NCBI GenBank assembly: GCA_017443765.1
Contig: JAFSYB010000128.1
Location: forward strand, 1-64,000
DNA length: 64,000 nt
Direction: 5' to 3'
Source: Muribaculaceae bacterium
GTDB taxonomy: Bacteria > Bacteroidota > Bacteroidia > Bacteroidales > Muribaculaceae
A program made the translations under genes and the position numbers. Positions 81 to 55,414 of this stretch are shown piece by piece. How positions within the stretch are numbered: position 1 is the stretch's first letter; every line of letters begins with the position of its first letter. The notes under the pieces were generated by a model. The model saw nothing but the letters and a program-made list of their open reading frames with translations, ran no database searches and was not told where the DNA came from.

Positions 81-845
81 CTACATATTAGAGTATTGAA
101 TATAATGCTTATTCAGCAAATTTATATCTGGTGCAAATTTTTCAGGCATATTCATTTCGCTCCCTTTTATTCTAACAAGATAACTCCTAAAATTATCATC
201 AATAATGGAATCAATCAGCTCTTGTTTGATGTCAATGACGTAATCGGGTGTTATTGTAAATAGCCAATTGTCGAATGCTTTATGGAAAAAGCTATTTAGA
301 CATAATCCATTTGCAGGATTTGTTCTATTCTTTACATCTTCAGCCCAAGGCGAAATATGGCAAGCTTCGATTAAGGATGGTGTTGTTACGCCAGAAACAC
401 AACAAGTACCATGATACGCGGCGATTACAGAATCTCTGAAGAACTGTTGATTCACTCGTTGTCGGACGACACGCTCCTTCTCAATGCCTTGGGGCAAGTC
501 GTTAATTGAGACATTTAATATATTCTCAACATTCGTTTTTCTTAACTTGGCTATTATACGTTCACTCTCGTATGATAAAGCCTCTGGATTGCTCATGAAT
601 TCATTCCAAACACACTCATCGAGTTTACTGCCATTCACTAAACCTGTTATTCCTTTGGCTTGCAGCAATGGATCAAAACGGCCTAAATTGCCTATCTTTA
701 GATTCATTGCTGCTGGCGAGCGCCCTATGAGTTTCGCATATTCAATCACTAAAGGATGGCTTGCACGACTCTCCTTGAATGAAATCTTGCAATAAAGATT
801 TAGGGCAACAATCAATTCTTCTCGTGTCCAATTGTGTTTTGCCAT
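81..845 (-). CDS. HNH endonuclease-like protein
   Basis: Predicted nuclease of 254 aa. The C-terminal half carries an HNH-type core: a His in ACHISPW, then NPANGLCLNSFFHKAFD with the Asn and second His, preceded by CCVSG. This matches the HNH_2-like family found in many orphan nuclease and restriction-like proteins. The N-terminal part (WTREELIVALNLY, then GRSPAAMNLKIGNLGRFDP) is typical of these proteins and may bind DNA. I chose the ATG at 845 because a promoter -7 box covers 864-871, so an ATG seven codons upstream would sit at the transcription start; AGGAG lies just before the chosen start. The gene is clearly AT-richer than everything to its right, which suggests recent transfer. No methylase or partner is visible, so the biological target is unknown. 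Confidence 0.8.
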   Translation of the reverse strand: MAKHNWTREELIVALNLYCKISFKESRASHPLVIEYAKLIGRSPAAMNLKIGNLGRFDPLLQAKGITGLVNGSKLDECVWNEFMSNPEALSYESERIIAKLRKTNVENILNVSINDLPQGIEKERVVRQRVNQQFFRDSVIAAYHGTCCVSGVTTPSLIEACHISPWAEDVKNRTNPANGLCLNSFFHKAFDNWLFTITPDYVIDIKQELIDSIIDDNFRSYLVRIKGSEMNMPEKFAPDINLLNKHYIQYSNM

Positions 846-863
846 ATCTCCTACTATGAAATG

Positions 864-871
864 CAAAGGTA
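864..871 (-). promoter_or_regulatory. -7 box for the HNH gene
   Basis: TACCTTTG on the minus strand matches the Bacteroidetes -7 consensus TAnnTTTG. It lies about 20 nt before the chosen ATG. No clear -33 TTTG is seen. A second identical box lies at 950-957 on the same strand, 86 bp upstream. Confidence 0.5.
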
Positions 872-1396: not shown

Positions 1397-4300
1397 TCAA
1401 TTGCTCATCACCTTTGTGGTGGTGACGGAGCCATCGGTGTGACGTGTGACCACGATGTTCACGCCGTGGAAGGGCTTGTCGCTCTTCATGCCGGCTGCGT
1501 TGACGTAGGTCACACTCTCCACGTCGGCCGTCGTGCGCACATCGGCTACTGCGGTGGCCGCGCTGGCGGTGACGGTGAGTTGCACATACTGCGTCTGTCC
1601 GCGCTGGGTGGCCCACACAATCACCTCCTGGCTTCCGCCGTTACCGGCATTGACATTGATCATGCCGTCGTCGCTGAGTGTGAGGGTCATCTCGCCAGCT
1701 GCCGGCGCGCCCTGGCCGTGGGCACCGCCAGTGGGAATCTCCATGCCGTAGGCAACGGTGCTGCCGTCCTGCGCCAGGGTGAAGTAGGGAGCCAGGTCAA
1801 TGGTTGAACTGCCCGTGCTCACTTCGGCAGTGGCGGCGTTCATGTCGCGCTCGCAGTTGAAGTCGTCCATCACGAAGTAGGCAGCGGTGTTCAGGCCATA
1901 GGTACCCTTGTCGCTGCCGTCGAGGGTGAAGCGCACCTTGGTGACCTTGCCGAGCGGGCGAAGGTCCATCCACTGCCAGGTGTCGAGGATGTAGTGGTCA
2001 GCGGTGTTCTCGCTGCGGTAGTCGCCCAGATAGAACGTCACCGTGCCAGTCTGTGTGCTGCCGTTGAAGCCGATGGCGTTGACGGCAAACCACGAGCCCT
2101 GCGAGAACTTGGTGGCGAATCCGTCACCCACGGCCATGCCATTGTAGGCATAGGCGTTGTTGCTCACATACACACCCCGCAGCTCGTCGCCATCCTCGCT
2201 GTTGGTCACTTCCACAAACTGTCCCTCGGGGAAGGCCACCACATAGTTGGCCGAGCCATTGTGTCCCTGCCCCACTGCGCTGTGCCACTGGTCGTCAAGG
2301 CCAGTGTAAGTGGTGGCGGTCTCGTTGCTCAGCGAGTAACCATACCAGTAGTTATAGCTGGGCCAAGCGCCGGTGTTGAAGTAGTAGGAGCCGCTGTAGA
2401 ACCCGTCGCTGACCGTGCTGGCCGTTGTGGGGTCGTAAGCCCAGTGGCTCTCCTGCTCCAGGTGGTTGTCGTCGATTGTGGCGGTGACAGCATCGCCGAG
2501 CACACGCACAGCGGTCTTGGCGGTGGCCGATTGGCCATCGGCGCTGGTCACCGTGAGGCGGTAGGCGTAGCTGTAGTCGGGCGTGACGGTGAGGTTCAGC
2601 TCACTGCCCACCACTTGGTTCATCTGGTCGCGCCACTCAATGGTGTACGGCTCGTCGCCTCCGGCCACAATAGCCTCGATGGTGGCAGCCTCGCCGGCCT
2701 GAACGGTCTGCACGTCGTCCACCTCGACCACGAGCGGCTCGATGTGGCGCTGCGTGGTGAACAATTCAGTCTCAACGATGTCGCTTTCCACTCCGAGTGC
2801 GCTCACCGTCATCATGTAGGCCTTGTAGCTCGTGGCGGGCTGCAAGTCGCTGATGGAGGTAGTCACCTCGGCGTCGGCAGTGATGTCTTGCGGCGTGGCA
2901 GCCTTGAGCTCGTCGACAGCCGGGGCCTTGCGCAGGCGTGCGGGCGCACCCTGTTCCGGCTCGGTGACTGCCTCGGCAAGCACATAGAGCTTGCCGCCCA
3001 CAGTCCACCTGCTGGTAATGGTGGCAGTGGTCTCGGTGACGTTGCCCACAATGGGATAGCCCTGGGCCATCACGGGTTTCTCTTCCACCATCTCGGCATA
3101 CTCGTAGGCGCCCACGGTGGGCGACGCAGTGCTGCGCACGTTGCCATCGGCATCGGTGGTGATGAAGTCGACGGGCAGACCCATGTTCAGGTTGCCCGGC
3201 TCAAGCAGGTGGAGGTCGGCCTCGCTCAGGAACTGAGCCTGCTCGGCCACGTTGCCGCTGTTGCCCTCGAGCTCGTTGAGTGCGTCGACGGTGGTGCCGT
3301 CAAGCACAGTCTCGCCCCAGAACGCATTGTTCACAAACTGTGCCATGCCGCTGTAGTCGGCGTGGATAAACATGGCCGGGCTTCCGGTGAGGTTCTGCAG
3401 CAGGTTGTTCTGCAACTTGATGCCGTTGTAGGAGGCGCCGCTGCGTCGGGCTATGTAGTAGCAGTAGCCGCCATTGCCGGCGATGCGCACGGTGTTGTTG
3501 TACAACTCGATGAACTTCTGGTCGCCGTCAATCTCGATGCCCGCGCTGCTGTTGCTGGGCGAGGCGGTGATGTTGATCACGTTGTTGTAGACCAGGACAG
3601 GCTGCTCGGCGGTGCCATAGGTTTCGCCACGCAGCTCAATGCCGCCGCTGTAGTAAGTGGTGGCGCTGGTCACCTTGTTGCCCCGCACCACGCTGGCGCC
3701 GCGCAGGCGTGCCAGGTCAAGTCCCCAGTAACCCGTCTTTTGAACGAGCGACTGATAGACGGTGTTGTTCTCAATAAGGGCATCGTCCTCGTCGTAGACA
3801 TACACGCCCTTGGAGCCGGCCTCGTTGATGACGTTGCCGCGCACCACCAGTCCCCGCTCACGGGTGAGCCCCACATTGTTGGTGCCGCCCAGATAGAGTG
3901 CGATATAGCCGCCATCGAGCAGGTTGTTCTCAAAGGTGGCGAAGTCGTTGTTGCGGTCATTCTCGTTCACGGCGCTGGTCTTCACCAGGTTGATGCCGCT
4001 GTAGCCGCTGGTCACCGGCGTGGCCTGCACGTGGCAGCCGCGCAGGGTGAAGTGGTGGCTGCGGTCGTAGGTCTGCACGATATAGCTGTACTCGCTCTCC
4101 TTGGCGGGAACGAAGCTCATCTTCTCGAAGGTGACGTAGGGCGTGTTCTCGACATAGACCATTCCTTTCTTGTAGCTGCTGGAGCCGGGCAGGTATTCCG
4201 AGAAGCCGGCCCCCGTCACCACCACTGCGTCGCGGTTGCCGCTCAGGCTGGTGAAGGTGATGGTGTTCTGCTGGCCGGCACCAGGCACGGCGGCAAACCA

Positions 4301-7300
4301 CACATTCTCGGCGTAGGAGCCGTCTTCCACCTGGAAAGTCACAGCGCCCTCCACGCCCTCTTGGAGCGCGGCGGTAGCGGCGGCAAAGGTGGCATAGTGT
4401 GCCAGGTCGCTGGAGCCGATGATGTAGTTGCCCTTGAGGCCGGCCTTGACGATGCGCTGGGCAGTTTCGCCGTTGACGGCCATCTCGCTCTGCGACACGC
4501 CCAGTTCGGTGGTCTGTGCCGCCACGGCGTTGCCGGTGGTGGCTTCGGGCGCGATGTCGTAGGCCAGCCACAGGTAGTAGTCGCCATTGTCGGCAATGGT
4601 AAGCGGCTGGTCCAGGTTCACCACGTTCTCGCCGTCGGCCAGCGTGGTGAGCGTGCCCATCAGGCGATTGGAGCTGAACAAGGCGTTGTGCTCGGTGTAG
4701 TAGACCCGTGCAGCAGCCACGTCGCCCAGCGAGGTGGTGCCGGCGGTGCTGAACTTCACACTGCTCACATACAGAGGCTCCTTGTCACCGCTCACCGTGA
4801 GGTGCAACTGCTGCATGGGGCTGCCTACGCTGTTGCGCATCACCGGGTCGGTGGTGTTGGCCACATCGATGCTTTCGATGGTGAATGGGGCTTTCTCGTG
4901 CAGGCTCACCTCCATCTCCCAGCCATCAAGCGTGGAGGCGGTGGTGTTGGCCTCGAAGACCACGGTGAGCGAGCCGTCCTCGGCCTTGCTCACCAGGTTG
5001 GCCGGGCCAGTGGTGGTGCTGTAGCCCGTAACCTTGCCCAGAATGTTGTCGGCATTGGCTTCGCGCCCGCTGTAGACCATCATCTTGCCACTGCCAATCG
5101 AGAAGGTCGACAGGGTGTTGATTTGCACGGCACTGTTGTCGCGTCCGGGCACAAAGGTCACAGTGCCTTTGAAGCCCTTGGTGAGTTTGCCGTCCTTGCC
5201 GCCATCGTCGTAGAAAAGCATGGGTTCGGTGACGGTGACCACCTTGCTGCCGCTCTCCATGACGTAGAGGTACTTCACCACGCGCTCGCCGGTGGGGTCG
5301 CCGTTCTCAACGGTTATGACAGCGTTGTTGTCATCGGTGAGGCTCACAAGCTTGGCATCGACCACCGTCTCGGCGGGAGCATCGGCCTTGATGTCGGCAG
5401 TCACCCAGAAGTAGTTTCCGCCTTCGGCCAAATCGCGCTCGCCATTCACGGTGACGGCACTGGCCTCGGGATTCTCGACGGTGCCGAAAGCCACAGCGCT
5501 GGCGCGGTCGTTCACATTGTTATAGTATACGCTTACTTTCGAAACGGCTGCGTGCGAATCCTTGAGGTCGAGATTCACGGCCTTCACCGTGGTTACGCTA
5601 AGCGTGCCCTCGGTCTCGACGTTGAAGTCGATCAAGGCAGCATCGGTGGCACCAACGGCCATCACATCGCTGCTGGTTTGGTTCACGGTCACGCTCTTCA
5701 CCTCCATATTGTGGTTTTGGAACGGCTGCACAGTGGCCGTCCAACCCGTTCCGGCATAGTAGCTGCTGGAGGTCTTGGGGTTGAAACGGATGGTGAGCGA
5801 GCCGTCGGCACTCTGCGAGCGCAGTTTCTTGCCCGGCCCCACGTTAGCCTCGCTGGCATCCTTCAGGTTCCACAGCAGGTTGGCACTGCTCACCTCAGTG
5901 CCGCTGTAGATTTCAAACACGGCCTTGGTGCCGTAGCTTGAGCTGGCGTAATAGACATCGAAAGTCGAGAAGTCAATCTCGGCCACAGTGTTCTCCAAAG
6001 TGGGCGTGAAGGTGACGATGTAGTCGGCATCGACGGTTTCATACTTGCCGCTGTATCCCTCGGTGTTGGTGAAGGTCCACGGTCCGCTGATGTTGTGGCT
6101 GTGGCTGCCTTGGGTGGCTCGGCAGATGTTCTGCACCAAGCGCATGGCAGTGACGGTCGAGGCTGGAGCTTGCGTAGCCTCGCCCACAGTGGCGGTGTTC
6201 AGCGTCAGCGTGATTTCGTCACCATTCTGCGCCTGCTCGTTCAGGTCGAGCACCACAGCCAGGTAGTTGTGTCCCTCGGTGAGTTCCTGGTCACCGGTGA
6301 TGGCGAAGGTGGTGCCGCCCACGGTTGCCTCACCAAACGTGTTGGTGGTGGCGAAAGTGTTCTTTTTTCCTAAATAATAAGCACGTGCGCGCACAATATT
6401 CGCAGCATCGACCGTGCTCAGATTCAGTCCCTTGAGAATCAGCGGATTGCTGGTGTTGTCGGTGATCACGTCCACCACAAGCATCTGCACGTCGGTGTCG
6501 CCAGCGGCCACGGTGGCCGTAGCGGAGGCCTCGGCAGTAATGCCTGCCAGTGTCATGTCGCCTGGCAGGAACTGGCTCACCACAGCCTCCCAACCGCTCT
6601 TGGGATAACCGGCAGTGCTCTTGAGATATACGGTCATCGAGCCGTCGGTGGCGGTCGATTTCACAATTTCCGGCTCATCGAGCAATGTGGCGATAAGGTT
6701 CTCCTCGTTCACCTCGCGACCGTTGTAGAACTTGAATACATCGTTGTAGCCCACGGAGGAGGTGTTGAACAGGTCGAGTTTCGAGAAATCGACTTTGATG
6801 GCCATTCCCTCGGTGGCGGGGACGAAGGTAATCTGTCCCTCGAAGCCCTGGGTGATGTTGCCATCCACGCCGCCGTCGTCATAGAAGTTGTAGGTGATGT
6901 CGCCCACGGTAATGACTTGCGGTGTGGCACTGATGAGCGCGATGGCCGGCTTGGCCACAGCCACAGAGGTGGCGGCGGTGAATGGTGTTACGCCATCGGG
7001 ATGCGCCGCTGTGGAAATGCCGGTGATTTCCACCTGCGCTTTGGAGCCAGGGGCCGCATCGCCAAGGAACTCGCCGGCAATCGAGAACAGGTTGTTGCCC
7101 TCGGTGAGGGACTCGTTCAGGGTAAATGCGTAGCCATCGCCGGTAGCCGCCACGGTGGCATTGAGAGCCGTTTCGCCCTTGAACGTAGCCAAGGCACCCT
7201 TATAAAGGCGCAGGCTCAGCGGGTCGATGGCGCTCTCGTTGGTCGGCACTTGGAACGAGATGCCCGTCACAGCGTCGGCATTCATAATGCCAGTGGCAGT

Positions 7301-7936
7301 CACCGTTGCCGTACCGAAATTGATGGCCTCGGTGGCAGTGGTGGCGGCCTCTACCATGGAGTAGTCGCTTCCGGCACCGGTCACGGTCATGTCGTCGAGC
7401 GTGATGCAGCGCACGGTGGCGTTCCAGCCCTGAATGGCCTTGGCAAAACGGTAGAGATAACCCACCGAAATGATGCCGGTGGCATCGGTGGCCGTGTAAG
7501 TTAGATTCGTGTAGGTGCCGTCGAGTTTCTCGAGCACAGTACCAGTGGGCAAGGTGCTCGAACTGGAGACACCGCTCGTTGAGGATGCGTAACTGAACGA
7601 TTCGTCGGCATCGGGGTCGCCGGCATACACGTTCACATAGGCTGGCCAGCTGGTTCCGTCGTTGCGCACATCGAGGTTGGCGAACGTGATTTGAATCGCC
7701 ATGCCATCGGCGGGCTTGAACACCGTGAGCGATTGCGAATTGCTGCTGTTCGACGAGGAGATGCCCGTGTATCCGTTCATGTCTTGGAACGTGATCACCT
7801 CATCGGCCGCAACTTCAATCGTCTGCTTGCCAAACTGCAGTTGTTTCACCACGCGGTCGGCACGTGCCGGCAAGGCCAACGCCGTGAGCGTGAGAAGCAG
7901 TGCAGTTGTCTTGGAAAACATTGTAAAGTGCTTCAT
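1397..7936 (-). CDS. Giant secreted multidomain protein with DUF4465-like domain, under B12 riboswitch
   Basis: 2,179 aa with a signal peptide (about 1-26, ending ALPARA). From the N-terminus I see four alternations of a CUB-like beta domain (about 48-180, 349-462, 615-742, 902-1015; features such as YDDGG, YSGRE and DGSLTV) with a domain resembling the N-terminal domain of BNR neuraminidases. A right-handed beta-helix follows (about 1169-1608, many N-rich turns), then an FN3-like segment, an Ig/PKD-like domain (about 1732-1815) and a DUF4465-like domain (about 1825-2027, ending YFVMDDFNCE). The last 50 residues (AAGMKSDKPFHGVNIVVTR) look like a type IX or related C-terminal sorting tail. A cobalamin aptamer lies in its leader. 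I infer a cell-surface cobamide-binding or capture protein. As I recall, the Bacteroides B12-binding BtuH proteins are of this kind, but that needs checking. Domain limits are read by eye. Confidence 0.8.
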   Translation of the reverse strand: MKHFTMFSKTTALLLTLTALALPARADRVVKQLQFGKQTIEVAADEVITFQDMNGYTGISSSNSSNSQSLTVFKPADGMAIQITFANLDVRNDGTSWPAYVNVYAGDPDADESFSYASSTSGVSSSSTLPTGTVLEKLDGTYTNLTYTATDATGIISVGYLYRFAKAIQGWNATVRCITLDDMTVTGAGSDYSMVEAATTATEAINFGTATVTATGIMNADAVTGISFQVPTNESAIDPLSLRLYKGALATFKGETALNATVAATGDGYAFTLNESLTEGNNLFSIAGEFLGDAAPGSKAQVEITGISTAAHPDGVTPFTAATSVAVAKPAIALISATPQVITVGDITYNFYDDGGVDGNITQGFEGQITFVPATEGMAIKVDFSKLDLFNTSSVGYNDVFKFYNGREVNEENLIATLLDEPEIVKSTATDGSMTVYLKSTAGYPKSGWEAVVSQFLPGDMTLAGITAEASATATVAAGDTDVQMLVVDVITDNTSNPLILKGLNLSTVDAANIVRARAYYLGKKNTFATTNTFGEATVGGTTFAITGDQELTEGHNYLAVVLDLNEQAQNGDEITLTLNTATVGEATQAPASTVTAMRLVQNICRATQGSHSHNISGPWTFTNTEGYSGKYETVDADYIVTFTPTLENTVAEIDFSTFDVYYASSSYGTKAVFEIYSGTEVSSANLLWNLKDASEANVGPGKKLRSQSADGSLTIRFNPKTSSSYYAGTGWTATVQPFQNHNMEVKSVTVNQTSSDVMAVGATDAALIDFNVETEGTLSVTTVKAVNLDLKDSHAAVSKVSVYYNNVNDRASAVAFGTVENPEASAVTVNGERDLAEGGNYFWVTADIKADAPAETVVDAKLVSLTDDNNAVITVENGDPTGERVVKYLYVMESGSKVVTVTEPMLFYDDGGKDGKLTKGFKGTVTFVPGRDNSAVQINTLSTFSIGSGKMMVYSGREANADNILGKVTGYSTTTGPANLVSKAEDGSLTVVFEANTTASTLDGWEMEVSLHEKAPFTIESIDVANTTDPVMRNSVGSPMQQLHLTVSGDKEPLYVSSVKFSTAGTTSLGDVAAARVYYTEHNALFSSNRLMGTLTTLADGENVVNLDQPLTIADNGDYYLWLAYDIAPEATTGNAVAAQTTELGVSQSEMAVNGETAQRIVKAGLKGNYIIGSSDLAHYATFAAATAALQEGVEGAVTFQVEDGSYAENVWFAAVPGAGQQNTITFTSLSGNRDAVVVTGAGFSEYLPGSSSYKKGMVYVENTPYVTFEKMSFVPAKESEYSYIVQTYDRSHHFTLRGCHVQATPVTSGYSGINLVKTSAVNENDRNNDFATFENNLLDGGYIALYLGGTNNVGLTRERGLVVRGNVINEAGSKGVYVYDEDDALIENNTVYQSLVQKTGYWGLDLARLRGASVVRGNKVTSATTYYSGGIELRGETYGTAEQPVLVYNNVINITASPSNSSAGIEIDGDQKFIELYNNTVRIAGNGGYCYYIARRSGASYNGIKLQNNLLQNLTGSPAMFIHADYSGMAQFVNNAFWGETVLDGTTVDALNELEGNSGNVAEQAQFLSEADLHLLEPGNLNMGLPVDFITTDADGNVRSTASPTVGAYEYAEMVEEKPVMAQGYPIVGNVTETTATITSRWTVGGKLYVLAEAVTEPEQGAPARLRKAPAVDELKAATPQDITADAEVTTSISDLQPATSYKAYMMTVSALGVESDIVETELFTTQRHIEPLVVEVDDVQTVQAGEAATIEAIVAGGDEPYTIEWRDQMNQVVGSELNLTVTPDYSYAYRLTVTSADGQSATAKTAVRVLGDAVTATIDDNHLEQESHWAYDPTTASTVSDGFYSGSYYFNTGAWPSYNYWYGYSLSNETATTYTGLDDQWHSAVGQGHNGSANYVVAFPEGQFVEVTNSEDGDELRGVYVSNNAYAYNGMAVGDGFATKFSQGSWFAVNAIGFNGSTQTGTVTFYLGDYRSENTADHYILDTWQWMDLRPLGKVTKVRFTLDGSDKGTYGLNTAAYFVMDDFNCERDMNAATAEVSTGSSTIDLAPYFTLAQDGSTVAYGMEIPTGGAHGQGAPAAGEMTLTLSDDGMINVNAGNGGSQEVIVWATQRGQTQYVQLTVTASAATAVADVRTTADVESVTYVNAAGMKSDKPFHGVNIVVTRHTDGSVTTTKVMSN

Positions 7937-7955
7937 TGTGAATAATTTAGGTTAA

Positions 7956-7999
7956 TAAAAACAGTTGTCCTCACTCGGCGTGCTCCACGCAGTGAGGAC
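7956..7999 (-). terminator. Terminator-like hairpin between B12 aptamer and start codon
   Basis: GTCCTCACT (7967-7975) pairs with AGTGAGGAC (7991-7999). Inside, GCGTG pairs with CACGC around a CTC loop, with a 2-nt bulge. On the minus strand five T residues follow after a short gap. It sits 20 nt before the giant gene's start, so it could act as the expression platform of the riboswitch. No anti-terminator pairing has been demonstrated. Confidence 0.55.
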
Positions 8000-8160
8000 G
8001 AAACACTTTATCAACGGGTAATGGTGAGATTGAAGCTGACAGCGCAGCGGCGCAGCGTGGCCCCTCGAATGTCAATTTCAATTTTCAATTCACAATTGAC
8101 AGCGTGAGCTGCTCGCCTGCCATCAACGGAAATTGTCCAATTATCGATTCACAATGTGTG
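8000..8160. other. Leader segment between B12 aptamer and hairpin
   Basis: No gene seen. It contains a CAATT-rich imperfect palindrome at about 8076-8102 (TGTCAATT against AATTGACA), similar to dispersed intergenic repeats of this group. Confidence 0.4.
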
Positions 8161-8164
8161 TTTC

Positions 8165-8397
8165 GGCCCTAAGTCCACGAGAGCACGAAATCGTTCTCGA
8201 TAACGAGGCAGGTCTTCTGGCTCATCTCCGTCGTCTTGCCTGGGCCTTCCCACCGGTGCCTGTGTCCGGCAGTGACCGCTATGGCGGCAAGCGACAACGT
8301 GGAGAAATACAGCAGCGGGTTCTGCCCAGGATTCACACCTGGTTCCCTTTTCAGCTGCCGCAGGAGCGGGCGCTCGCGGCAGCCACCACATTATCAC
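8165..8397 (-). ncRNA. Cobalamin (B12) riboswitch
   Basis: Read on the minus strand, the segment shows the conserved core of the cobalamin aptamer in order: GGGAA followed by GGTGTGAATCC (about 8331-8347), CCCGC with CTGT, CACTGC, GGGAAGG, and the B12 box GCCAGAAGACCTGCC (8207-8221). A strong hairpin (about 8354-8381) lies upstream. In this family adenosylcobalamin or related cobamide binding lowers expression of the downstream gene. Here the only downstream gene on this strand is the 2,179-aa protein. The outer limits are approximate. Confidence 0.93.
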
Positions 8398-8401
8398 GCC
8401 G

Positions 8402-8433
8402 CAAAATTACTGCTTTTTCGCGAAACACACAAA
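8402..8433 (-). promoter_or_regulatory. Promoter of the riboswitch transcript
   Basis: On the minus strand TTTG (8430-8433), a 20-nt spacer and TAATTTTG (8402-8409) match the Bacteroidetes consensus exactly. Transcription would start near 8397, just before the B12 aptamer. Confidence 0.8.
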
Positions 8434-8630
8434 TTTTTGAGTATCTTTCTGCGTTCTTTTTACGATTCCGATTGCAGTAGGCGCATGATGCTATTTATGC
8501 CGAAAGTACGTCAAAATGCGGAACACCCGCAAAACTGCGTGTTTTGCAGGCATCCCTTAAATTCGCCTAATTCGTGCAATTCGCATTTAAGGTGAATTAC
8601 CCACGCAAAACCTTACAGAGCCATATTTTG
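8434..8630. other. Spacer between divergent promoters
   Basis: No gene seen. It contains a hairpin GCAAAAC/GTTTTGC (8529-8547) and an inverted repeat CCTTAAAT/ATTTAAGG (8555-8562 and 8585-8592) around AATTCG-rich repeats. These may be operator or repeat sequences. Confidence 0.4.
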
Positions 8631-8662
8631 TTTGCGAGTGTGCAAAAAAACAACTACTTTTG
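8631..8662 (+). promoter_or_regulatory. Promoter of the Cys/His protein and TonB receptor
   Basis: TTTG (8631-8634), 20 nt, TACTTTTG (8655-8662). The expected start of transcription is near 8667, which coincides with the GTG start codon proposed for the next gene. Confidence 0.75.
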
Positions 8663-8666
8663 CGGC

Positions 8667-9020
8667 GTGAAACGGAAAGACAAGGCATATTGGTCGGCCT
8701 GGGTGTTGCTGTTGGTGTTTGTGCCAATGGTTCTGCTCTCGTCAGTTCACTTTCATGCCGCCTTGAACGACAGTGGCGCCGCTTGCCCTGAGTGTCTGAA
8801 ACATGCCGTGCACAAGGGTCACTTGATGACTCACAGTGCGCATGTGGATTGTCCGTTGTGCGCCTTCCAGAACAATGTCTATCAAGCTGCCGATGAGCAG
8901 CCGCCCACTGTCTCCCCAGTATTCACCCGCCTGACGCAAGTGTGTGCCGTTCCGGCCCTTGCACTGGGTGCAACAACCAATCAAAAAAACCGCGCCCCAC
9001 CCTTTACGTTCTGTGACTGA
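8667..9020 (+). CDS. Small membrane protein rich in Cys and His
   Basis: 117 aa if the GTG at 8667 is used. That start places VKRKDK before a hydrophobic helix (about 9-26) and fits a promoter whose start point falls on the same base, so the mRNA may be leaderless. Upstream ATGs would lie inside the promoter. The exported part carries HFHA, CPEC, several His and CPLC within about 45 residues, a likely metal-binding patch. It is 36 bp before the TonB receptor gene and probably shares its transcript. I infer a periplasmic metal sensor or chaperone for that receptor. No named family was recognised. Confidence 0.65.
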   Translation: MKRKDKAYWSAWVLLLVFVPMVLLSSVHFHAALNDSGAACPECLKHAVHKGHLMTHSAHVDCPLCAFQNNVYQAADEQPPTVSPVFTRLTQVCAVPALALGATTNQKNRAPPFTFCD

Positions 9021-9056
9021 GAGCATTTGTCCTATTAATCCCATCACTATCACAGA

Positions 9057-11363
9057 ATGAAAAGAATGAATCATTTCATGCTGTTGACAGCCCTGTGCAT
9101 GTCGATAGCAGTCGCTGCGGCTCATGCCCAGACGACGACACTGGCCGGCACGGTGACGCACGACGGCGACGGCGAGCCCCTGCCAGGAGTAACCTTGTTT
9201 TTCCCCGACCTTAACACCGGGACAATCACCGATGTCTCGGGTAACTATGAAATCGCCGGGTTGCCCCTTGCCAGAGTCACCGTTCAGGTGAGCTACATCG
9301 GTCATCAAACCATCGTAAAAGATGTAGACCTGCGCCTGACCACGCACCTCGATTTCATGATGAAAGAGAGCAACGCGATGATTGACGAGGTGGTGGTGAC
9401 TGCCTTTACCGGGACCTCGCAACTGAAAAAATCGCCCACGCCCGTCAATGTGGTCTCGCACCGCAACCTTCACGCGGTGGGTTCGACCAACATCATCGAT
9501 GCCCTATCCCAGCAGCCCGGCGTAGCGCAACTCACCACTGGCGGAGCCATTTCCAAACCCATCATCCGCGGCCTGGGTTACAATCGCGTGGCGGTTGTCA
9601 GCGATGGCATCCGCCAGGAGGGGCAGCAATGGGGCGACGAGCACGGCATCGAGGTGGATGCCGACCGCGTGCAGAGTGCCGAGATTCTCAAAGGCCCCGC
9701 CAGCCTGTTGTACGGCAGCGATGCCATGGCGGGCGTGCTGGTGCTCAACAACATTCCCAGTGTGGCAAAAGACCATTTTGAGGCCAACCTCGGCACGCAA
9801 TACCAAAGCAACAACGGGCTGTGGGACTATTCGATTGATGTGGCGGGCAACAAGGCCGTGCTGTGGGATGTGCGCTGGAGTGAACGCATGGCGCACGCCT
9901 ACAAAAACCGCCACGACGGCTATGTGGTGGGTTCGCAGTTCCACCAGCGGGCATTGTCGGGCCTGATGGGCTTGAACCGCAAATGGGGAAACAGCACACT
10001 GTCGCTCAACCACCTCCACCTCACTCCCGGCATTGTTGAAGGAACACGCGATCCCCTGACTGGCGATTTGGTGACACCCGGCAACGACTACAATTTGACG
10101 ACCTACCACAAGTCGCTGCCGTTTCAGCAGGTTTACCACACCAAAGCGGTACTCGACAACTCCATCTTTCTCGGCGACGGACGCTTGAAGCTCATCCTTG
10201 GCTACCAGCACAACAAGAGGCAGGAGTTTGACGAAGCACCCGACGAGGCCGAACTGGACTTCCGCCTGCACACGCTGAATTACGACACGCGGTATGTGTT
10301 CGGAGTAGGAGGCTGGAAAGTGGCCTCGGGAGTCAACGGAATGTGGCAGCACTCGCTCAACAAGGGCGAGGAAGTGCTCATTCCCGAATACAAACTGTTT
10401 GACATCGGCGTGTTTTCCACCGCGAGCTACGACATCGGCCGCTGGACGCTGAGTGGCGGCCTGCGCTTTGACAACCGCCACATTCACAGCTTGGCGTTGG
10501 AAAGCATCTTCACCGACTTCACGCGCAACTTTAGTGGATTGACCGGGAGTGTGGGTGCCGTACTTCGTGCCACCGACCGCTTGAACGTGAGGGTGAACGC
10601 CTCGCGCGGCTTTCGCACTCCAAACATGAGCGAACTTGCCAGCAACGGCGTTCACGAGGGCAGCATACGCTACGAACTCGGCGACACGGACTTGAAGTCG
10701 GAGTTCAGCTGGCAATTTGATTTGGGTGCCGACTACTCCTCGGCGGTAATCTCGGCCCAGGTGGCGCTGTTCTTCAACCGCGTCAACAACTTCATTTATA
10801 TGAAACGCCTGACGGGTGTGGAAACCGAGGGGTACCCCACCTACCGCTACACCAGCGGCAACGCCCGGCTGTGGGGTGCCGAGCTCACCGTGGATGTCCA
10901 CCCTGTGGAGCCGCTGCATTTCGAGAACTCGTTGGGCTTTGTCGATGCTCGGTTGATGAACCAGCCACTTGAGAGCCGATACCTGCCCAGCACACCCCCA
11001 CTCCATTGGAAAAGCGAATTGCGCTACGACCTCATTCGCGACGGCCGCACATTCACCAACACTTTCGTTGCCGTGGGTGTTGACTGCTATGCGCGCCAGA
11101 ACCACTATCTCATGGAAAGCGGCAGCGAGACGGCCACTCCGGGGTATGCGCTGCTGAATGTAAGGGTGGGCACACAGGTGAAGCATCATGACCGCGTGAT
11201 TGCCAATGTGGGCGTCATTGCCGACAATCTGCTTGACAAAGCCTATCAGAGTCATCTGAGCCGATTGAAGTATGGCGATGTGAACGCGGTAACAGGCCGC
11301 ATGGGGGTGTTCAACATGGGCCGCAACGTCACACTCAAGCTCGACATTCCCCTGTCGTTCTGA
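9057..11363 (+). CDS. TonB-dependent outer-membrane receptor, possible metal uptake
   Basis: 768 aa. A signal peptide (about 1-24, ending AAAHAQ) is followed by a carboxypeptidase-regulatory-like domain (about 26-105: LAGTVTHDGDGEPLPGV), a plug (about 115-225: VVVTAFTG, IRGLGYNRVAVVSDGIRQ, ILKGPASLLYGSDAMAGVL) and a 22-strand-type barrel ending in LDIPLSF. The plug segment QQWGDEHGIEVDADRV resembles ZnuD-like zinc receptors, although similar plugs occur in other siderophore and metal receptors. The adjacent Cys/His-rich protein supports a metal substrate. It is divergent from the B12-controlled gene but has no riboswitch on its own strand, so a role in cobalamin uptake is possible but not supported by the leader. 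Confidence 0.88.
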   Translation: MKRMNHFMLLTALCMSIAVAAAHAQTTTLAGTVTHDGDGEPLPGVTLFFPDLNTGTITDVSGNYEIAGLPLARVTVQVSYIGHQTIVKDVDLRLTTHLDFMMKESNAMIDEVVVTAFTGTSQLKKSPTPVNVVSHRNLHAVGSTNIIDALSQQPGVAQLTTGGAISKPIIRGLGYNRVAVVSDGIRQEGQQWGDEHGIEVDADRVQSAEILKGPASLLYGSDAMAGVLVLNNIPSVAKDHFEANLGTQYQSNNGLWDYSIDVAGNKAVLWDVRWSERMAHAYKNRHDGYVVGSQFHQRALSGLMGLNRKWGNSTLSLNHLHLTPGIVEGTRDPLTGDLVTPGNDYNLTTYHKSLPFQQVYHTKAVLDNSIFLGDGRLKLILGYQHNKRQEFDEAPDEAELDFRLHTLNYDTRYVFGVGGWKVASGVNGMWQHSLNKGEEVLIPEYKLFDIGVFSTASYDIGRWTLSGGLRFDNRHIHSLALESIFTDFTRNFSGLTGSVGAVLRATDRLNVRVNASRGFRTPNMSELASNGVHEGSIRYELGDTDLKSEFSWQFDLGADYSSAVISAQVALFFNRVNNFIYMKRLTGVETEGYPTYRYTSGNARLWGAELTVDVHPVEPLHFENSLGFVDARLMNQPLESRYLPSTPPLHWKSELRYDLIRDGRTFTNTFVAVGVDCYARQNHYLMESGSETATPGYALLNVRVGTQVKHHDRVIANVGVIADNLLDKAYQSHLSRLKYGDVNAVTGRMGVFNMGRNVTLKLDIPLSF

Positions 11364-11470
11364 CTTACCCAAACCATGCTACGCTGTTTTTGAAGTCTGC
11401 TGAAACGGGCTTGGGAAAAATGGGGTGAAACGACAGATTCTTAACCACCTGAGCCGATGGCCACACATTG

Positions 11471-11510
11471 CAGGAGGGAGCGTGCAAGCGCAGCTTTCCT
11501 TCCTGTTTTT
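11471..11510 (+). terminator. Terminator after the TonB receptor gene
   Basis: CAGGAGGGA (11471-11479) pairs with TCCTTCCTG (11497-11505, one G-U), followed at once by five T residues. Confidence 0.75.
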
Positions 11511-11550
11511 GTGAAAAAATGTTGGCATTTGTGCGTTTTGGCGACCGTCT

Positions 11551-11582
11551 TTTGGCTGTTCGCTCGTTTAGTTGTAATTTCG
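11551..11582 (+). promoter_or_regulatory. Promoter of the DUF5106 gene
   Basis: TTTG (11551-11554), 20 nt, TAATTTCG (11575-11582), one base off the -7 consensus. The start codon follows 27 nt later. Confidence 0.6.
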
Positions 11583-11608
11583 CTGATTGTATTCAAAACA
11601 TTTCATCC

Positions 11609-12487
11609 ATGAAGAAACGACTTCACGTCTTTGGCCTGGCGGTATCCGCCTTGCTTGGTGCTGCATCCGTCACAGCGCAAGCGCAGGAGAGCCAGCCCGC
11701 GCTGTTCACCTATCCGCAGGCCCCCGACACCTGCTCCTCGCTTGAGAGCCGCAGCAACTATGTGCTCCAGCACTTTTGGGACACTTTCGACTTTGGCAAA
11801 CCCATCACCGACGACCGGGCACTGGTTAAGACGTTCCGCGACTATGCCGACATGTTCAAGTACGGCCACCGCAACGTGGTGATGGCCAGCGTGCGCGACT
11901 TTATGTTCAAGCTCCGCGTCAATTCCGCCAACCTGAGCAAGGTGGGTCAGGTGGCCGAGATGGTGCTCTACGGCCCAATGGCCGACTTCTGGAGCGACGA
12001 GGTGTACGTTGAGTTTGCCAAGTCGCTGGCCTCGGCCACAGTGCTTCAGAAGGAGGAGCGCGAGTACTATTCGCGGCAAATCGCGCTGATAGGCTTGTGC
12101 CAAGAAGGGGCTCCCCTCCAGCTGGAGTTTATCGATGCCACAACGGGCGGCAAACGCACCATCGAGCAGACCGACACGGTGACCACGCTGGTGCTGTTTG
12201 TTAACGACGGCATCGACAGCCGCACCGGGCGCACAATGCTCGATGCCGACCTCACACTCACGCAGCTCGTGGAACAAGGCAACGTGAGCGTGCTGTGCAT
12301 CTTCGACGGCGTCCCGTCGAAGGACTGGGCGGCAACCCTGCCGGCCGCTTGGCAGAAAGGCTATGCCGAGCGCATCGAGCAACACATCGACCTGCGCTTC
12401 CTGCCCGCCTGCTTCCTGCTCGATGCCGAGCACCGCATCTTGCAAAAAAACATGAGCATACAAGACCTAAAAGAGGCTCTAAATTAA
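11609..12487 (+). CDS. DUF5106 protein with thioredoxin-like C-terminus
   Basis: 292 aa. The start at 11609 gives a clean signal peptide (MKKRLHVFGLAVSALLGAAS, cut after QAQ). The segment FTYPQAPDTCSSLESRSNYVLQHFWDTFDF is the hallmark of DUF5106, found in Bacteroidetes exported proteins that usually continue into a thioredoxin-like domain. The C-terminal part has that outline (TTLVLFVNDGID, then LPACFLLDAEHRIL), but the CxxC redox motif expected after the first strand is absent. It is therefore probably not an oxidoreductase. Next gene DoxX follows after 19 bp. Confidence 0.82.
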   Translation: MKKRLHVFGLAVSALLGAASVTAQAQESQPALFTYPQAPDTCSSLESRSNYVLQHFWDTFDFGKPITDDRALVKTFRDYADMFKYGHRNVVMASVRDFMFKLRVNSANLSKVGQVAEMVLYGPMADFWSDEVYVEFAKSLASATVLQKEEREYYSRQIALIGLCQEGAPLQLEFIDATTGGKRTIEQTDTVTTLVLFVNDGIDSRTGRTMLDADLTLTQLVEQGNVSVLCIFDGVPSKDWAATLPAAWQKGYAERIEQHIDLRFLPACFLLDAEHRILQKNMSIQDLKEALN

Positions 12488-12506
12488 CGAATAACACGAT
12501 TGTCTT

Positions 12507-12983
12507 ATGTTGAAAAGATTGTTTCTCTATAGCGCCGGTCACACCTACAGCAACCTGTCGCGGCTGTTCCTGCGCATGTTCACGAGTGTGATGTTCCTGC
12601 AGCTGTGCGTCAGGCAGCTGTTGCACATCGACCAAGTGGCCCCGGCCTTCGAGGGGTTGATGGGTCTGTCGCCCGAGACCTCGGTGACGGTGTTGCTGGT
12701 TGTCGAGTCGCTGTGCGCGGTGTGCGTCATGGTGGGCCTGCTCATGCGCCTGGCCCTTATCCCGCCCATTGTGATCATGGGCCTGGCCGAGTGGGAACTG
12801 CTCACCCTGACAGCCGGACAGGCAAATGGCATTCTCAGCTTCCAGCCCGGCTACCCCATGATGTTCCTGGGCATTTTCATCTACCTGATGCTTGCCGGGC
12901 CAGGCAAAATCTCGCTCGACTACGTTATCGGAGTTCACCTGATCGACACCCGCGAGGACGACCAAGTCCTCGACAAGGCATGA
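12507..12983 (+). CDS. DoxX-family membrane protein
   Basis: 158 aa with four predicted membrane helices (about 20-40, 58-80, 82-100, 112-132). The order and spacing fit the small DoxX family, whose biochemical role is mostly unclear though some members are linked to redox or oxidative stress. It follows the DUF5106 gene by 19 bp and is likely cotranscribed. No catalytic residues can be assigned. Confidence 0.75.
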   Translation: MLKRLFLYSAGHTYSNLSRLFLRMFTSVMFLQLCVRQLLHIDQVAPAFEGLMGLSPETSVTVLLVVESLCAVCVMVGLLMRLALIPPIVIMGLAEWELLTLTAGQANGILSFQPGYPMMFLGIFIYLMLAGPGKISLDYVIGVHLIDTREDDQVLDKA

Positions 12984-13060
12984 GGGAAAGCGGGAAAGCC
13001 GTAAGCGGCAAGTGATGATACTCGCAACACGATTGCTCACACGTTTACTTGTTTAGTATA

Positions 13061-14137
13061 ATGGCCATTGCAGTATTGATTTCGGGCGGTGTCGACAGCG
13101 CCGTGGCAGTGCACCGGCTGGTGGAACAAGGCTGCGACCTGCACCTGTTCTACATCCGTATAGGCATGAAAGACGGCGAGGGCGACTGCTCGGCCGACGA
13201 GGACATCGAGATGTGCACGCTCGTTGCGCGCCACTATGGGTTGCCATTCGATGTGGTGTCGCTTCAAGACGAGTATTGGGACAACGTGATGGACTATGCG
13301 CTGCGCACCGTCAAGGCCGGCCTCACGCCAAACCCCGACATGATGTGCAACCGCATGATTAAGTTTGGCTGCTTTGAGCAGCGTTGGGGACGCGAGTTCG
13401 ACCTCACCGCCACCGGCCACTACGCCACCACCGACGTGATTGACGGCGTGAAATACCTGGCCACGGCGGCCGACCCGGTCAAGGACCAAACCGACTTTCT
13501 GGCGCAAATCACCGGCAAACAACTCAACCACTTGGTTTTCCCCATCGGCGACCTGCCCAAGGACGAAGTGCGCCGCCTTGCAGCCCAGGCGTGCCTGCCC
13601 AACGCCACGCGCAAGGACAGCCAGGGCATTTGCTTCCTGGGACAAATCAACTATAACGATTTCATTCGCAGCCATCTGGGCGAGCGTCCCGGCCCCATCA
13701 TCGACATTGCCACCGGGCGCAAGCTGGGCGAGCACCGGGGCTACTGGTTCCACACCATCGGGCAGCGCAAGGGCCTGGGGCTGAGCGGCGGGCCGTGGTA
13801 TGTGGTGCGGAAAAATGTTGACGAGAATGTGATTTATGTGTCGGGTGGCTTCGGCACCGAGCGGCAGTATGGCCGCGTGCTGCACCTCGACGGAATGCAT
13901 TTCATCAGCGGCAATCCCTGGCCTGACGCCGAACACCCGGTGCGCATCACGTTCAAGAACCGCCACACGCCGGTGTTCATGCAAGCCACGTTCACGCGGA
14001 TTACCGACCGCGAGTGGGTCATCGAGAGCGACCAGGACGTGCAGGGCATCGCTCCGGGGCAGTATGCCGTGGTCTACGACGAGAACAAGCACTTGTGCTA
14101 CGGCAGTGGAATGATTGTTGAGAACATTGGTGTTTAG
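13061..14137 (+). CDS. mnmA: tRNA-specific 2-thiouridylase MnmA
   Basis: 358 aa cytoplasmic enzyme that thiolates U34 of tRNA Lys, Glu and Gln. The start at 13061 is the first ATG; a TTG lies four codons upstream. The PP-loop SGGVDS is at residues 8-13. The two redox cysteines of the family are at about 96 (MMCNR) and 191 (SQGICFLG). The C-terminal beta-barrel part with WHTIGQRKGLG-like sequence (GYWFHTIGQRKGLGLSGG) is present. Bacteroidetes genomes often carry more than one mnmA-like gene. Confidence 0.93.
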   Translation: MAIAVLISGGVDSAVAVHRLVEQGCDLHLFYIRIGMKDGEGDCSADEDIEMCTLVARHYGLPFDVVSLQDEYWDNVMDYALRTVKAGLTPNPDMMCNRMIKFGCFEQRWGREFDLTATGHYATTDVIDGVKYLATAADPVKDQTDFLAQITGKQLNHLVFPIGDLPKDEVRRLAAQACLPNATRKDSQGICFLGQINYNDFIRSHLGERPGPIIDIATGRKLGEHRGYWFHTIGQRKGLGLSGGPWYVVRKNVDENVIYVSGGFGTERQYGRVLHLDGMHFISGNPWPDAEHPVRITFKNRHTPVFMQATFTRITDREWVIESDQDVQGIAPGQYAVVYDENKHLCYGSGMIVENIGV

Positions 14138-51430: not shown

Positions 51431-53266
51431 ATGGCAGAAAACAGAAAGAAACTGTTCGAGCAATTTGCGCCGGTCACTCCCGAGGAGTGGCGCGCCAAGG
51501 CCGAGGTGGACCTGAAAGGAGCCGACTTCGACAAGAAAATGGTGTGGCGTAGCAACGAGGGCTTCAACGTGCAGCCGCTGTACCGTGGCGTGGACATCAA
51601 GGACTTGAAGGCCACGGAATCGCTGCCGGGCGAGTATCCATACGTGCGCGGCACACGCACCGACAACGACTGGCAACGCCGCCAGGACATCGTGGTCGAT
51701 GACATTGCGCAGGCCAACGCCAAGGCCCGCGAGCTGCTCACCAAGGGCATCACCTCGCTGGGACTGAAAGTGAATGCCGACCACGCGCCGCAGATGGGAA
51801 GCCTGCTCGCCGGCATCGACCTGAACACGGTGGAGGTGAACCTGAAGTGCTGCCCCAAGTGCGCACTGGCACTCACGCAGGCATTGGTGGCCCTGGTTCG
51901 GCAAGCCGGTGCCGAGGACACGTTCCACGGCTCGGTGGCATTCAACCCGTTCAAGCGCCAGCTCAAGCATGGCGTGAAATTCCCTGGCGACATGGTGGCG
52001 ATGGCTGGCGAGCTGCTGCGCACCGCCGCCCCGGTGAAGCACCTGCGCGTGCTCAGCGTGGATTCGCTGATGCTGTGCAACGCCGGCGCCTATATCTACC
52101 AGGAGCTGGGTTACGCCCTGGCATGGGGCAACGAGTGGATGGCCTGCCTCACCGACGCCGGCTTCAAGGCCGACGAGGTGGCTCGCCGAATCAAGTTCAA
52201 CATGGGCATTTCCACCGTCTATTTCATGGAGATTGCCAAGTTCCGCGCCGCGCGTCAGTTGTGGGCACAGATTGTGAAGCAGTACGGCCCCGAGTGCGAC
52301 TGCGCCTGCAAGATGGTGGTGAACGCCGAAACCACCACGTTCAACCTCACGGTGTTTGACGCCTACGTGAACCTGCTGCGCACGCAAACCGAGGCCATGA
52401 GCGCCGCCCTGGCCGGTGTGGATTCGATTGTGGTCACGCCATTCGACGCTCCCTATAAGGCGAGCGACGACTTCAGCGAGCGCATCGCCCGCAACCAGCA
52501 GATTCTGCTGCGCGAGGAGAGCCACCTCGACAAAGTGGTGGACCCCGCCGGCGGCTCCTACTATGTGGAGATGCTCACCGCCTCGCTTGCTCAGGAGGGA
52601 TGGAAACTCTTCCTCGACGTGGAAGATAAGGGCGGTTTTGCTGCCACACTCGAAGAGATAATTAATAATGTGAACGCCAGCGCCACGGCCCGTTTCGACA
52701 AGGTGGCCAAGCGCAAAGAGCAGCTGCTGGGCACCAACCAGTTCCCGAATTTCACCGAGAAGGCTGCCGACAAGGTGGCCGCGACGTGCGGCTGCAAATG
52801 CGGTTGCGCCCCCGAAGAAGACGGCGGTGTGGCCTTGAACAAGAAGCGGCTGGCCAGCCAGTTCGAGGAAATCCGCTTGGCTACCGAGGCTGCCGCCCAC
52901 ACGCCCAAGGCGTTCATGCTCACCATCGGCAACCTGGCCATGCGCCTGGCCCGCGCACAGTTCTCGTGCAACTTCTTTGCCTGCGCCGGCTATGACCTGG
53001 TGGACAACAACGGCTTCAAGACCGTGGCCGACGGCATCAACGCCGCCATGGAGCAGAAGGCCGACATCGTGGTGCTGTGCTCGAGCGACGACGAGTACGC
53101 CGCCCTCATCCCCGAAGCCGTGAAACTGCTCGACGGCCGTGCCGAGCTGGTGCTTGCCGGCCCCGAAACCGACGAGTTCAAGGCCCTGGGCATCACCCAT
53201 TTCATCAATGTCCGCACCAACGTGCTGGGCACATTAAAAGCTTTCAACGCCAAACTGTTAAAGTAA
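51431..53266 (+). CDS. mutA: Methylmalonyl-CoA mutase small subunit
   Basis: 611 aa, the non-catalytic partner of MutB. A TIM-barrel domain (about 40-440) and a degenerate B12-binding fold (about 485-605) are present; the latter lacks the DxHxxG cobalamin ligand, as expected for the small subunit. The linker contains CGCKCGC (C453, C455, C457, C459), an unusual Cys cluster. mutB follows 9 bp on. Confidence 0.94.
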   Translation: MAENRKKLFEQFAPVTPEEWRAKAEVDLKGADFDKKMVWRSNEGFNVQPLYRGVDIKDLKATESLPGEYPYVRGTRTDNDWQRRQDIVVDDIAQANAKARELLTKGITSLGLKVNADHAPQMGSLLAGIDLNTVEVNLKCCPKCALALTQALVALVRQAGAEDTFHGSVAFNPFKRQLKHGVKFPGDMVAMAGELLRTAAPVKHLRVLSVDSLMLCNAGAYIYQELGYALAWGNEWMACLTDAGFKADEVARRIKFNMGISTVYFMEIAKFRAARQLWAQIVKQYGPECDCACKMVVNAETTTFNLTVFDAYVNLLRTQTEAMSAALAGVDSIVVTPFDAPYKASDDFSERIARNQQILLREESHLDKVVDPAGGSYYVEMLTASLAQEGWKLFLDVEDKGGFAATLEEIINNVNASATARFDKVAKRKEQLLGTNQFPNFTEKAADKVAATCGCKCGCAPEEDGGVALNKKRLASQFEEIRLATEAAAHTPKAFMLTIGNLAMRLARAQFSCNFFACAGYDLVDNNGFKTVADGINAAMEQKADIVVLCSSDDEYAALIPEAVKLLDGRAELVLAGPETDEFKALGITHFINVRTNVLGTLKAFNAKLLK

Positions 53267-53275
53267 TCGACCGAC

Positions 53276-55414
53276 ATGAGACCAAACTTTAAGAACATAG
53301 ATATTGCAAACGAGGCTTTTAATGTGGAACACAAGCCTCTCGTGATGGGAGAACCGTGGAAAAATGCCGAGCTTCTCGACATCAAGCCCATCTACACCAA
53401 GCAGGACCTCGAGGGTTTGGAGCACCTGGACTATGTGGCCGGCATCCCCCCCTTCCTGGGCGGCCCCTACAGCCTGATGTACCCGTTCCGTCCGTGGACG
53501 GTGCGCCAGTACGCCGGTTTCTCGACGGCAGCCGAGAGTAACGCCTTCTACCGCCGCAACCTGGCCTCGGGCCAGAAGGGTCTGTCGGTGGCCTTCGACC
53601 TTCCCACGCACCGCGGCTACAACGCCGACAACCAGCGCGTGGTGGGCGATGTGGGCAAGGCCGGTGTGAGCATCTGCTCGGTCGAGGACATGAAAGTGCT
53701 CTTCGACGGCATACCCCTGAACGAGATGTCGGTGTCGATGACCATGAACGGCGCTGTGCTGCCCATCATGGCTTTCTACATCGTGGCCGGTCTGGAGCAG
53801 GGTGCCAAGCTCGAGCAGATGGCAGGAACCATCCAGAACGACATCCTCAAGGAGTTTATGGTGCGCAACACCTACATCTACCCGCCCAAGTTCTCGATGG
53901 AGATTATCGCCAGCATCTTTGAGTACACCTCGAAGTATATGCCCAAGTTCAACTCCATCTCCATTTCGGGCTACCACATGCAGGAAGCCGGAGCCACGGC
54001 CGACATCGAGCTGGCCTACACGCTGGCCGATGGCATGGACTACATCCGCACGGGCGTGAACGCCGGTTTGAGCGTTGATGCCTTCGCGCCACGCTTGTCG
54101 TTCTTCTGGGGCATATCGATGAACTTCTTCACCGAGATTGCCAAGATGCGCGCCGGTCGCCTGCTCTGGGCCAAGATTGTGAAGAGCTTTGGCGCGGAGA
54201 ACCCCAAGTCGATGTCGCTGCGCACCCACAGCCAGACGTCGGGTTGGTCGCTGACGGCGCAAGACCCGTTCAACAACGTGGGCCGCACCTGCATCGAGGC
54301 CATGGCAGCCGCTCAGGGCCACACCCAGTCGCTGCACACCAACGCCCTCGACGAGGCCATCGCACTGCCCACCGACTTCTCGGCCCGCATTGCCCGCAAC
54401 ACGCAGATTTACATCCAGCAGGAGACCTACATCACCAAGGCCATCGACCCCTGGGCCGGCTCCTACTATGTGGAGGCACTCACCGACGAGCTCGTGCACA
54501 AGGCCTGGTCGCACATCGAGGAGATTGAGAAACTGGGCGGCATGGCCAAGGCCATCGAGACCGGCGTGCCCAAGATGCGCATCGAGGAAGCCGCCGCACG
54601 CACACAGGCCCGCATCGACAGCGGCCGCCAGACCCTGGTGGGCGTGAACAAATACGCCCTGGAGAAAGAGCCGCCCATCGACATCCTGGAAATCGACAAC
54701 ACCGAGGTGCGCCGCGAGCAGGTGGAGGGGCTGGAGAAGCTCCGCGCCAGCCGCGACGAGGCAAAGGTGCAGGCTGACCTCGAGGCCATCACCCATTGCG
54801 TGGAAACCGGCGAAGGCAACCTGCTCGAACTGGCAGTGGAGGCCGCCAAGGACCGTGCCTCGCTCGGCGAAATCAGCGATGCCTGCGAAAAAATCGTGGG
54901 ACGTTACAAAGCAGTTGTTAAAACCATTTCAGGCGTGTATTCATCAGAAACCAAATCCGATCCCGACCTGCAGAAGGCCCGCGACCTCACCGCTAAGTTC
55001 GCGGCCCAGGAAGGTCGCCAGCCACGCATCATGGTGGCCAAGATGGGCCAGGACGGCCACGACCGCGGTGCCAAGGTGGTAGCCACTGGCTATGCCGACT
55101 GCGGTTTCGACGTGGACATGGGCCCGCTGTTCCAAACCCCCGAAGAGGCCGCCCGCGAGGCCGTGGAGAACGATGTGAACGTGCTGGGCGTGTCGTCGCT
55201 GGCCGCCGGACACAAGACGCTCGTGCCCGCTGTGATTGCCGAACTCAAGAAGCTCGGCCGCGAGGACATCATCGTCATTGCCGGCGGTGTGATTCCGGTA
55301 CAAGACTACGACTTCCTCTACAAGGCCGGCGTGGCCGCCATCTTCGGCCCAGGCACCAACGTCATGAAGTCGGCCATCGAAATCATGAACATCCTTCTCG
55401 ACGAGGAAGACTGA
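53276..55414 (+). CDS. mutB: Methylmalonyl-CoA mutase large subunit
   Basis: 712 aa catalytic subunit, converting succinyl-CoA and (R)-methylmalonyl-CoA with adenosylcobalamin. In Bacteroidales it feeds the succinate-propionate pathway. The barrel carries [13 protein letters not shown] and [12 protein letters not shown]. The C-terminal B12 domain has the [12 protein letters not shown] ligand motif, with His at 595. Cotranscribed with mutA. Confidence 0.97.

Follow-up and report, generated by a model that had tools for sequence, protein, structure and literature searches.

Vitamin B12 is a contested nutrient in the gut and the mouth, and the B12-capture proteins known from Bacteroides are small lipoproteins. 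The subject of this analysis is the gene for a far larger protein, referred to here as the giant, which lies behind a cobalamin riboswitch in a 64,000-nucleotide stretch of DNA from a Muribaculaceae bacterium (contig JAFSYB010000128.1, positions 1 to 64,000; the window). The closest described systems are the DUF4465 (IPR027828) proteins BtuJ1, BtuJ2 and D5EK51. B12 binding was demonstrated in 2025-26 for eight divergent DUF4465 proteins, a tyrosine in the HI loop is the hallmark of the B12-binding members, and the BtuJ1 and BtuJ2 genes are located in B12-riboswitch loci (PMC13398666). A type IX tail is present on 229 of 824 DUF4465 proteins (PMC13398666, PMC12751083).

Thus B12 binding by DUF4465 and type IX tails on DUF4465 proteins are already published. 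What appears to be new, as far as can be read from the DNA, is the architecture of the giant, a B12 control of its own, a hairpin that probably terminates transcription ahead of the start codon, and a set of CUB domains conserved above the B12 domain. The giant, its riboswitch and their spread were not found in the papers searched, all from open-licence PubMed Central.

A DUF4465 domain within a giant protein

The preliminary description of this DNA had read a DUF4465-like domain here and proposed comparing it with BtuH. The domain was recovered: the C-terminal domain of the giant is a true DUF4465 domain (PF14717, residues 1860-2026, E 1e-49, 169.7 bits against a cut-off of 25), belonging to the BtuJ family rather than to BtuH. 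Sequence and fold searches both pointed to DUF4465/BtuJ, and BtuH was rejected as the main label; the structure of BtuH2 (7biz) matched solely the Ig domain that precedes DUF4465, and no sequence match to 7biz was seen. BtuH2 (BT1956) of B. thetaiotaomicron is a surface B12 binder with N-terminal Ig/PKD domains and a C-terminal B12 domain, a layout like that of the giant, but its B12-binding domain is of another type.

An AlphaFold model of residues 1735-2035 (pLDDT 95) was compared with the PDB. It has the augmented jellyroll fold of the DUF4465/BtuJ family, with an extra N-terminal Ig domain, and matched B12-bound D5EK51 (9hmu_A) with Z 27.6 (2.1 Å, 207 residues, 29%), BtuJ1 with Z 25 and BtuJ2 with Z 20. 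The HI-loop motif NTPxY, with its tyrosine, appears in the giant as NTAAY; among the giants this tyrosine, Y2020, is retained in 51 of 52, and 52 of 53 have Y or W at position 1929. By analogy with the characterised proteins, we infer that the giant's own DUF4465 domain binds cobamides.

The domain, the fold (Z 20-28) and the HI-loop tyrosine are thus common to the giant and to BtuJ1, BtuJ2 and D5EK51. These proteins are of ~230-300 residues (BtuJ1 and BtuJ2 being lipoproteins), whereas in the giant the domain makes up about one tenth of a 2,179-residue non-lipoprotein, whose first cysteine is residue 177, and CUB/BNR repeats and a beta-helix are added. The CUB-like repeats and beta-helix had been claimed previously and both were found, CUB over its Pfam cut-off (E 1e-4, 23.0 bits against 21.4) and Beta_helix just under. 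A repeat-2 profile revealed four CUB + BNR units (residues 64-310, 345-599, 640-868 and 905-1158), and PF14873 (BNR_assoc_N) matched the giant in three stretches (E 6.9e-27), the best at residues 1022-1148. The AlphaFold model of residues 335-605 (pLDDT 93), also compared with the PDB, showed two folds in succession, that of CUB (Z up to 15.8) and then the beta-sandwich found at the N terminus of GH33 sialidases (Z up to 15.5). This sandwich (PF14873, Z ~15) is shared with the GH33 sialidases of Bacteroidota (NanH, Sialidase26), but the Pfam scan found no sialidase catalytic domain in the giant.

The riboswitch and its distribution

The aptamer covers the full RF00174 model (1-189) and scores 99.0 bits against a gathering score of 31.5. 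This agrees with the preliminary description, which had read a consensus promoter, a cobalamin aptamer and a single 2,179-residue secreted gene here; the promoter is of the Bacteroidales type, for which a -33/-7 consensus is known, and the open reading frame begins with a signal peptide. The expected transcription start, ~8398, coincides with the 5' edge of aptamer P1, and the same promoter pattern was found 5' of many orthologous aptamers. A sigma-70 promoter scan and a simple terminator scan gave nothing useful at the leader; they cover neither promoters of this type nor hairpins separated from the U-run by 5 nt. The aptamer is probably placed to give the giant its own dedicated B12 control.

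Between the aptamer and the ATG, 20-30 nt from the latter, stands a hairpin that, folded with its flanks, reaches -21.7 kcal/mol (z -3.8), a value as low as which was seen in none of 200 shuffles. A hairpin of -10 kcal/mol or lower, with TTTT after it and within 75 nt of the ATG, was counted in 15 of 36 leaders from the genus, against 3 of 169 control genes from these loci and 0.9% of shuffled sequences. The position of the hairpin is fixed across species though the stem sequences diverge greatly. It is a probable intrinsic terminator, serving as the expression platform of the riboswitch.

A scan of the genus covered 101 genomes. DUF4465 proteins occur in 96 and giants of ~2,000-2,200 residues in some forty; going by the loci that carry names, the genus belongs with Candidatus Sodaliphilus and related uncultured Muribaculaceae of rumen and horse, and full-length orthologues are 41-78% identical to the giant. 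In the set of genus loci (the window and 35 further loci of Sodaliphilus type) RF00174 accompanies the giant in all 36 and lies directly upstream in 34. Other genera of Muribaculaceae have the riboswitch at 17 of 17 giants or shorter forms. A wider search, with the CUB profile alone against a contig set of 85,000 species, retrieved 80 loci, and DUF4465 was present in every untruncated protein. Where these gave further, not previously seen Bacteroidales loci with upstream DNA (32), a riboswitch was detected at 28, by cmscan at 19 and by the conserved 3' box at 9. Carriers include Hoylesella marshii, Prevotella pectinovora, P. aurantiaca, P. corporis, P. falsenii, Xylanibacter muris and Bacteroides salyersiae. 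The protein is as large as had been claimed and, rather than being peculiar to a single genome, is conserved across Bacteroidales. A tree of DUF4465 alone did not recover a single origin of the giants (8 label changes, long branches); full-length homology supports a common architecture. As a side observation, L175 carries back-to-back cobalamin riboswitches on opposite strands (2033-2596), one of which leads a giant.

The giant had also been described as not linked to BtuB. This holds for the window, where no BtuB gene lies near the giant, but not for these relatives: in L071 and L072, from the genus, the riboswitch heads a BtuB-BtuG-X-giant operon, in L146 (Carboxylicivirga) the giant lies inside a BtuB-BtuG-giant cluster, and in L063 and L065 it is beside BtuB and gene X. 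The order riboswitch, gene X, giant was found in seven loci (L148, L149, L155, L158, L159, L160 and L180). Gene X of the btu operon (L005, 9030-10256, minus strand) has a PAPGQFVN motif and a dockerin end, with no other Pfam match; it recurs in btu loci, stands directly before giants in those seven Bacteroidales and is a candidate for a B12-handling gene.

The genome holds exactly two copies of RF00174, the leader of the giant and that of a BtuB operon on contig C117, which reads BtuB-BtuG-X-small DUF4465 (BtuJ); this small DUF4465 protein ends in the giant's C-terminal tail. Both subunits of B12-dependent methylmalonyl-CoA mutase are encoded in the window, and no match to cobI/cbiL was found in the genome; the organism therefore looks like a B12 user reliant on import. 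MetH also had no match in the genome.

Natural variants suggest which part of the giant matters most. The short forms L092 and L093 are without the first three repeats and keep the riboswitch. Mini forms of 465-478 residues, found in L063, L065, L067 and L075, consist of Ig, DUF4465 and tail alone and have a riboswitch each. As these forms retain DUF4465 and riboswitch, the B12 head may be the indispensable part. In the same four loci the riboswitch-giant and riboswitch-mini DUF4465 units stand in tandem. The mini forms cluster with neighbouring giants on the DUF4465 tree and are apparently local duplications, riboswitch included, from at least two events.

A probable B12-repressible surface trap and its alternatives

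A B12-controlled, unusually large cobamide-capture protein, as proposed in the preliminary description, is well supported by the sequence comparisons, and we consider it likely that the giant is a B12-repressible surface B12 trap. Behind this reading stand the family of the RNA, the protein's domains and their fold, a tyrosine that is conserved, the recurrent pairing of riboswitch with gene and, in relatives, operons that link the giant to BtuB. At low cellular B12, transcription would read through the leader and a 232-kDa exported protein would be made; at high B12 the ligand-bound aptamer would favour the hairpin and U-run, and transcription would stop. The protein would be exported by Sec and then probably by the type IX system. 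Its C-terminal tail would hold it at the surface, and such anchoring would keep DUF4465 close to the outer membrane and to BtuB-BtuG, with the CUB/BNR repeats and the beta-helix extending outwards. Cobamides bound by DUF4465 would then be handed to BtuB, the transporter that the second locus encodes. The gene is probably, therefore, an overlooked large B12-capture device of gut and oral Bacteroidales. If so, Bacteroidales would have a second B12-capture format, conserved in Muribaculaceae, Prevotella, Bacteroides and Marinilabiliaceae, and several carriers are cultured strains, so that direct testing is feasible.

Several observations weigh against this reading. No riboswitch was detected at 4 of the 32 further loci, namely L146, L151 (Porphyromonas catoniae), L164 and L168. 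The type IX-like tail that had been claimed fails TIGR04183, the NCBIfam type IX tail model, in the giant itself. It stands, however, in that ~19 further proteins of the genome carry the same tail (54-76% identical across ~40 residues), the tails of the orthologues L077, L078 and L081 pass TIGR04183 (37.7-50.6 bits), and type IX sortase PorU is represented by three tandem NF033707 matches (901, 707 and 672 bits); export by the type IX system, with the C terminus as anchor, is the best reading. The tandem PorU-like genes sit on G000 contig C81 (1316-12256). Within the genus the CUB domains are more conserved than DUF4465 (CUB2, of repeat 2, 0.84; CUB3 0.80; DUF4465 0.68), CUB2 being the most conserved part of the giant, and simple B12 capture leaves this unexplained. 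The question raised is why the protein devotes ~1,800 residues, and with them its most conserved stretch, to CUB repeats. Finally, the U-run after the hairpin is interrupted in the close relatives L047, L049 and L061.

The broken U-runs bear on mechanism alone. The riboswitch might instead act on the start of translation, with the hairpin, so close to the ATG, as a sequestering stem; this would be compatible with B12 capture and is possible, if doubtful, since the window and 14 other leaders have a strong hairpin with TTTT only a few bases beyond it, the arrangement of intrinsic terminators, and in B. theta the repression of riboswitch genes is visible at the RNA level (PMC8941943). The conservation of CUB2 and CUB3 would be explained if the CUB/BNR arms were the main business of the protein and bound something else that carries B12 (a B12-binding protein of host or bacterial origin, a vesicle or another cell), DUF4465 still being the B12 site. 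The repeats would be farthest from the cell in a C-terminally anchored protein, and DUF4465 accompanies them on all of the untruncated proteins recovered with the CUB profile. The human protein cubilin binds, through its CUB domains, intrinsic factor loaded with B12, and when the CUB profile was run against all PDB chains the top sequence match was cubilin (3kq4_B, E 0.0037; fold Z 14.8). This match is borderline and may merely mirror typical CUB sequence; the CUB fold binds many things, with the CUBs of PCPE-1, neuropilin and cubilin fitting equally well by fold, intrinsic factor is not normally met by rumen bacteria, and L092 and L093 dispense with three repeats while keeping the riboswitch. 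Carrier-binding arms are unlikely.

A bacterial counterpart of cubilin, in which outward CUB arrays catch protein- or vesicle-bound cobamide and pass it to DUF4465 and BtuB, is very unlikely; cubilin resembles the giant in having tandem CUB domains in a setting of B12 capture, but it holds B12 via intrinsic factor, and common descent is unsupported beyond the CUB fold. Were it true, such capture would open carrier-locked B12 to Bacteroidales. Least of all do we expect the giant to be an adhesin, whose DUF4465 domain merely senses B12 or has lost it and whose riboswitch steers adhesion to B12-rich partners or niches. Domains of the beta-helix, CUB and sialidase-N types do occur widely in adhesins and glycan-binding proteins, but the tyrosine of the B12 pocket and the fold are retained, and mini forms led by a riboswitch of their own have arisen next to giants; what these keep is Ig, DUF4465 and tail, which makes the B12 head the part worth copying.

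Features and neighbours of the locus

Table 1. Coordinates of features in the window, numbered on the forward strand
Feature	Position	Strand	Basis or remarks
Bacteroidales-type promoter, TTTG-N20-TAATTTTG	8402..8433	-	read in sequence and pattern match
Cobalamin riboswitch aptamer RF00174	8190..8405	-	99.0 bits, E 1.6e-23
Hairpin GTCCTCACTGCGTGGAGCACGCCGAGTGAGGAC	7967..7999	-	near-perfect; U-run at 7961-7957, then ATG; -20.2 kcal/mol
Giant ORF	1397..7936	-	ATG start, 2,179 aa, 231.7 kDa; sole gene of transcription unit
Sec-type signal peptide, aa 1-27	7856..7936	-	read in sequence; no lipobox cysteine
Repeat 1, CUB-like + BNR_assoc_N-like, aa 40-330, divergent	6947..7819	-	repeat-2 profile, iE 1.8e-11
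Repeat 2, CUB + BNR_assoc_N, aa 345-600	6137..6904	-	Pfam, profile, AlphaFold
Repeat 3, CUB + BNR_assoc_N, aa 610-885	5282..6109	-	iE 1.9e-44
Repeat 4, CUB + BNR_assoc_N, aa 890-1160	4457..5269	-	iE 2.5e-42
Right-handed beta-helix, aa 1165-1620	3077..4444	-	PF13229 E 4.7e-5, just below cut-off; conserved block in orthologues
Fn3-like domain (putative), aa 1621-1734	2735..3076	-	inferred from sequence
Ig/PKD-like domain, aa 1735-1812	2501..2734	-	AlphaFold; Z ~10-11 to Ig/PKD domains
DUF4465 (BtuJ-type) domain, aa 1818-2028	1853..2485	-	PF14717, AlphaFold, HI-loop NTAAY
C-terminal sorting-type tail, aa 2133-2179	1400..1540	-	tail common to ~19 other proteins of genome
B12-dependent methylmalonyl-CoA mutase, both subunits	51431..55414	+	PF01642, 743.9 and 456.2 bits

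The only same-strand neighbour downstream of the giant is an HNH-type gene, 530 nt off, and the genes upstream of its unit are divergently oriented; the unit therefore looks monocistronic. The HNH-type gene (81-866, minus strand) has a weak match, under cut-off, to a phosphorothioated-DNA restriction endonuclease. The divergent cluster (8574-14137, plus strand) encodes a DUF2946-like small protein, a TonB receptor, a DUF5106 protein, a DoxX-family protein and a tRNA-thiolation-type gene. The TonB receptor (9057-11363, plus strand) was considered as a partner of the giant and rejected, as its top scores were to heme/metal receptor models and B12 models were weak and under cut-off. Its homologues adjoin mini-DUF4465 genes in L067, L074 and L075, a link to the giant being unproven. 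Elsewhere in the window, a Bacteroidales-1 (suggested 6S) RNA was found at 50010-50195 on the plus strand (109.8 bits).

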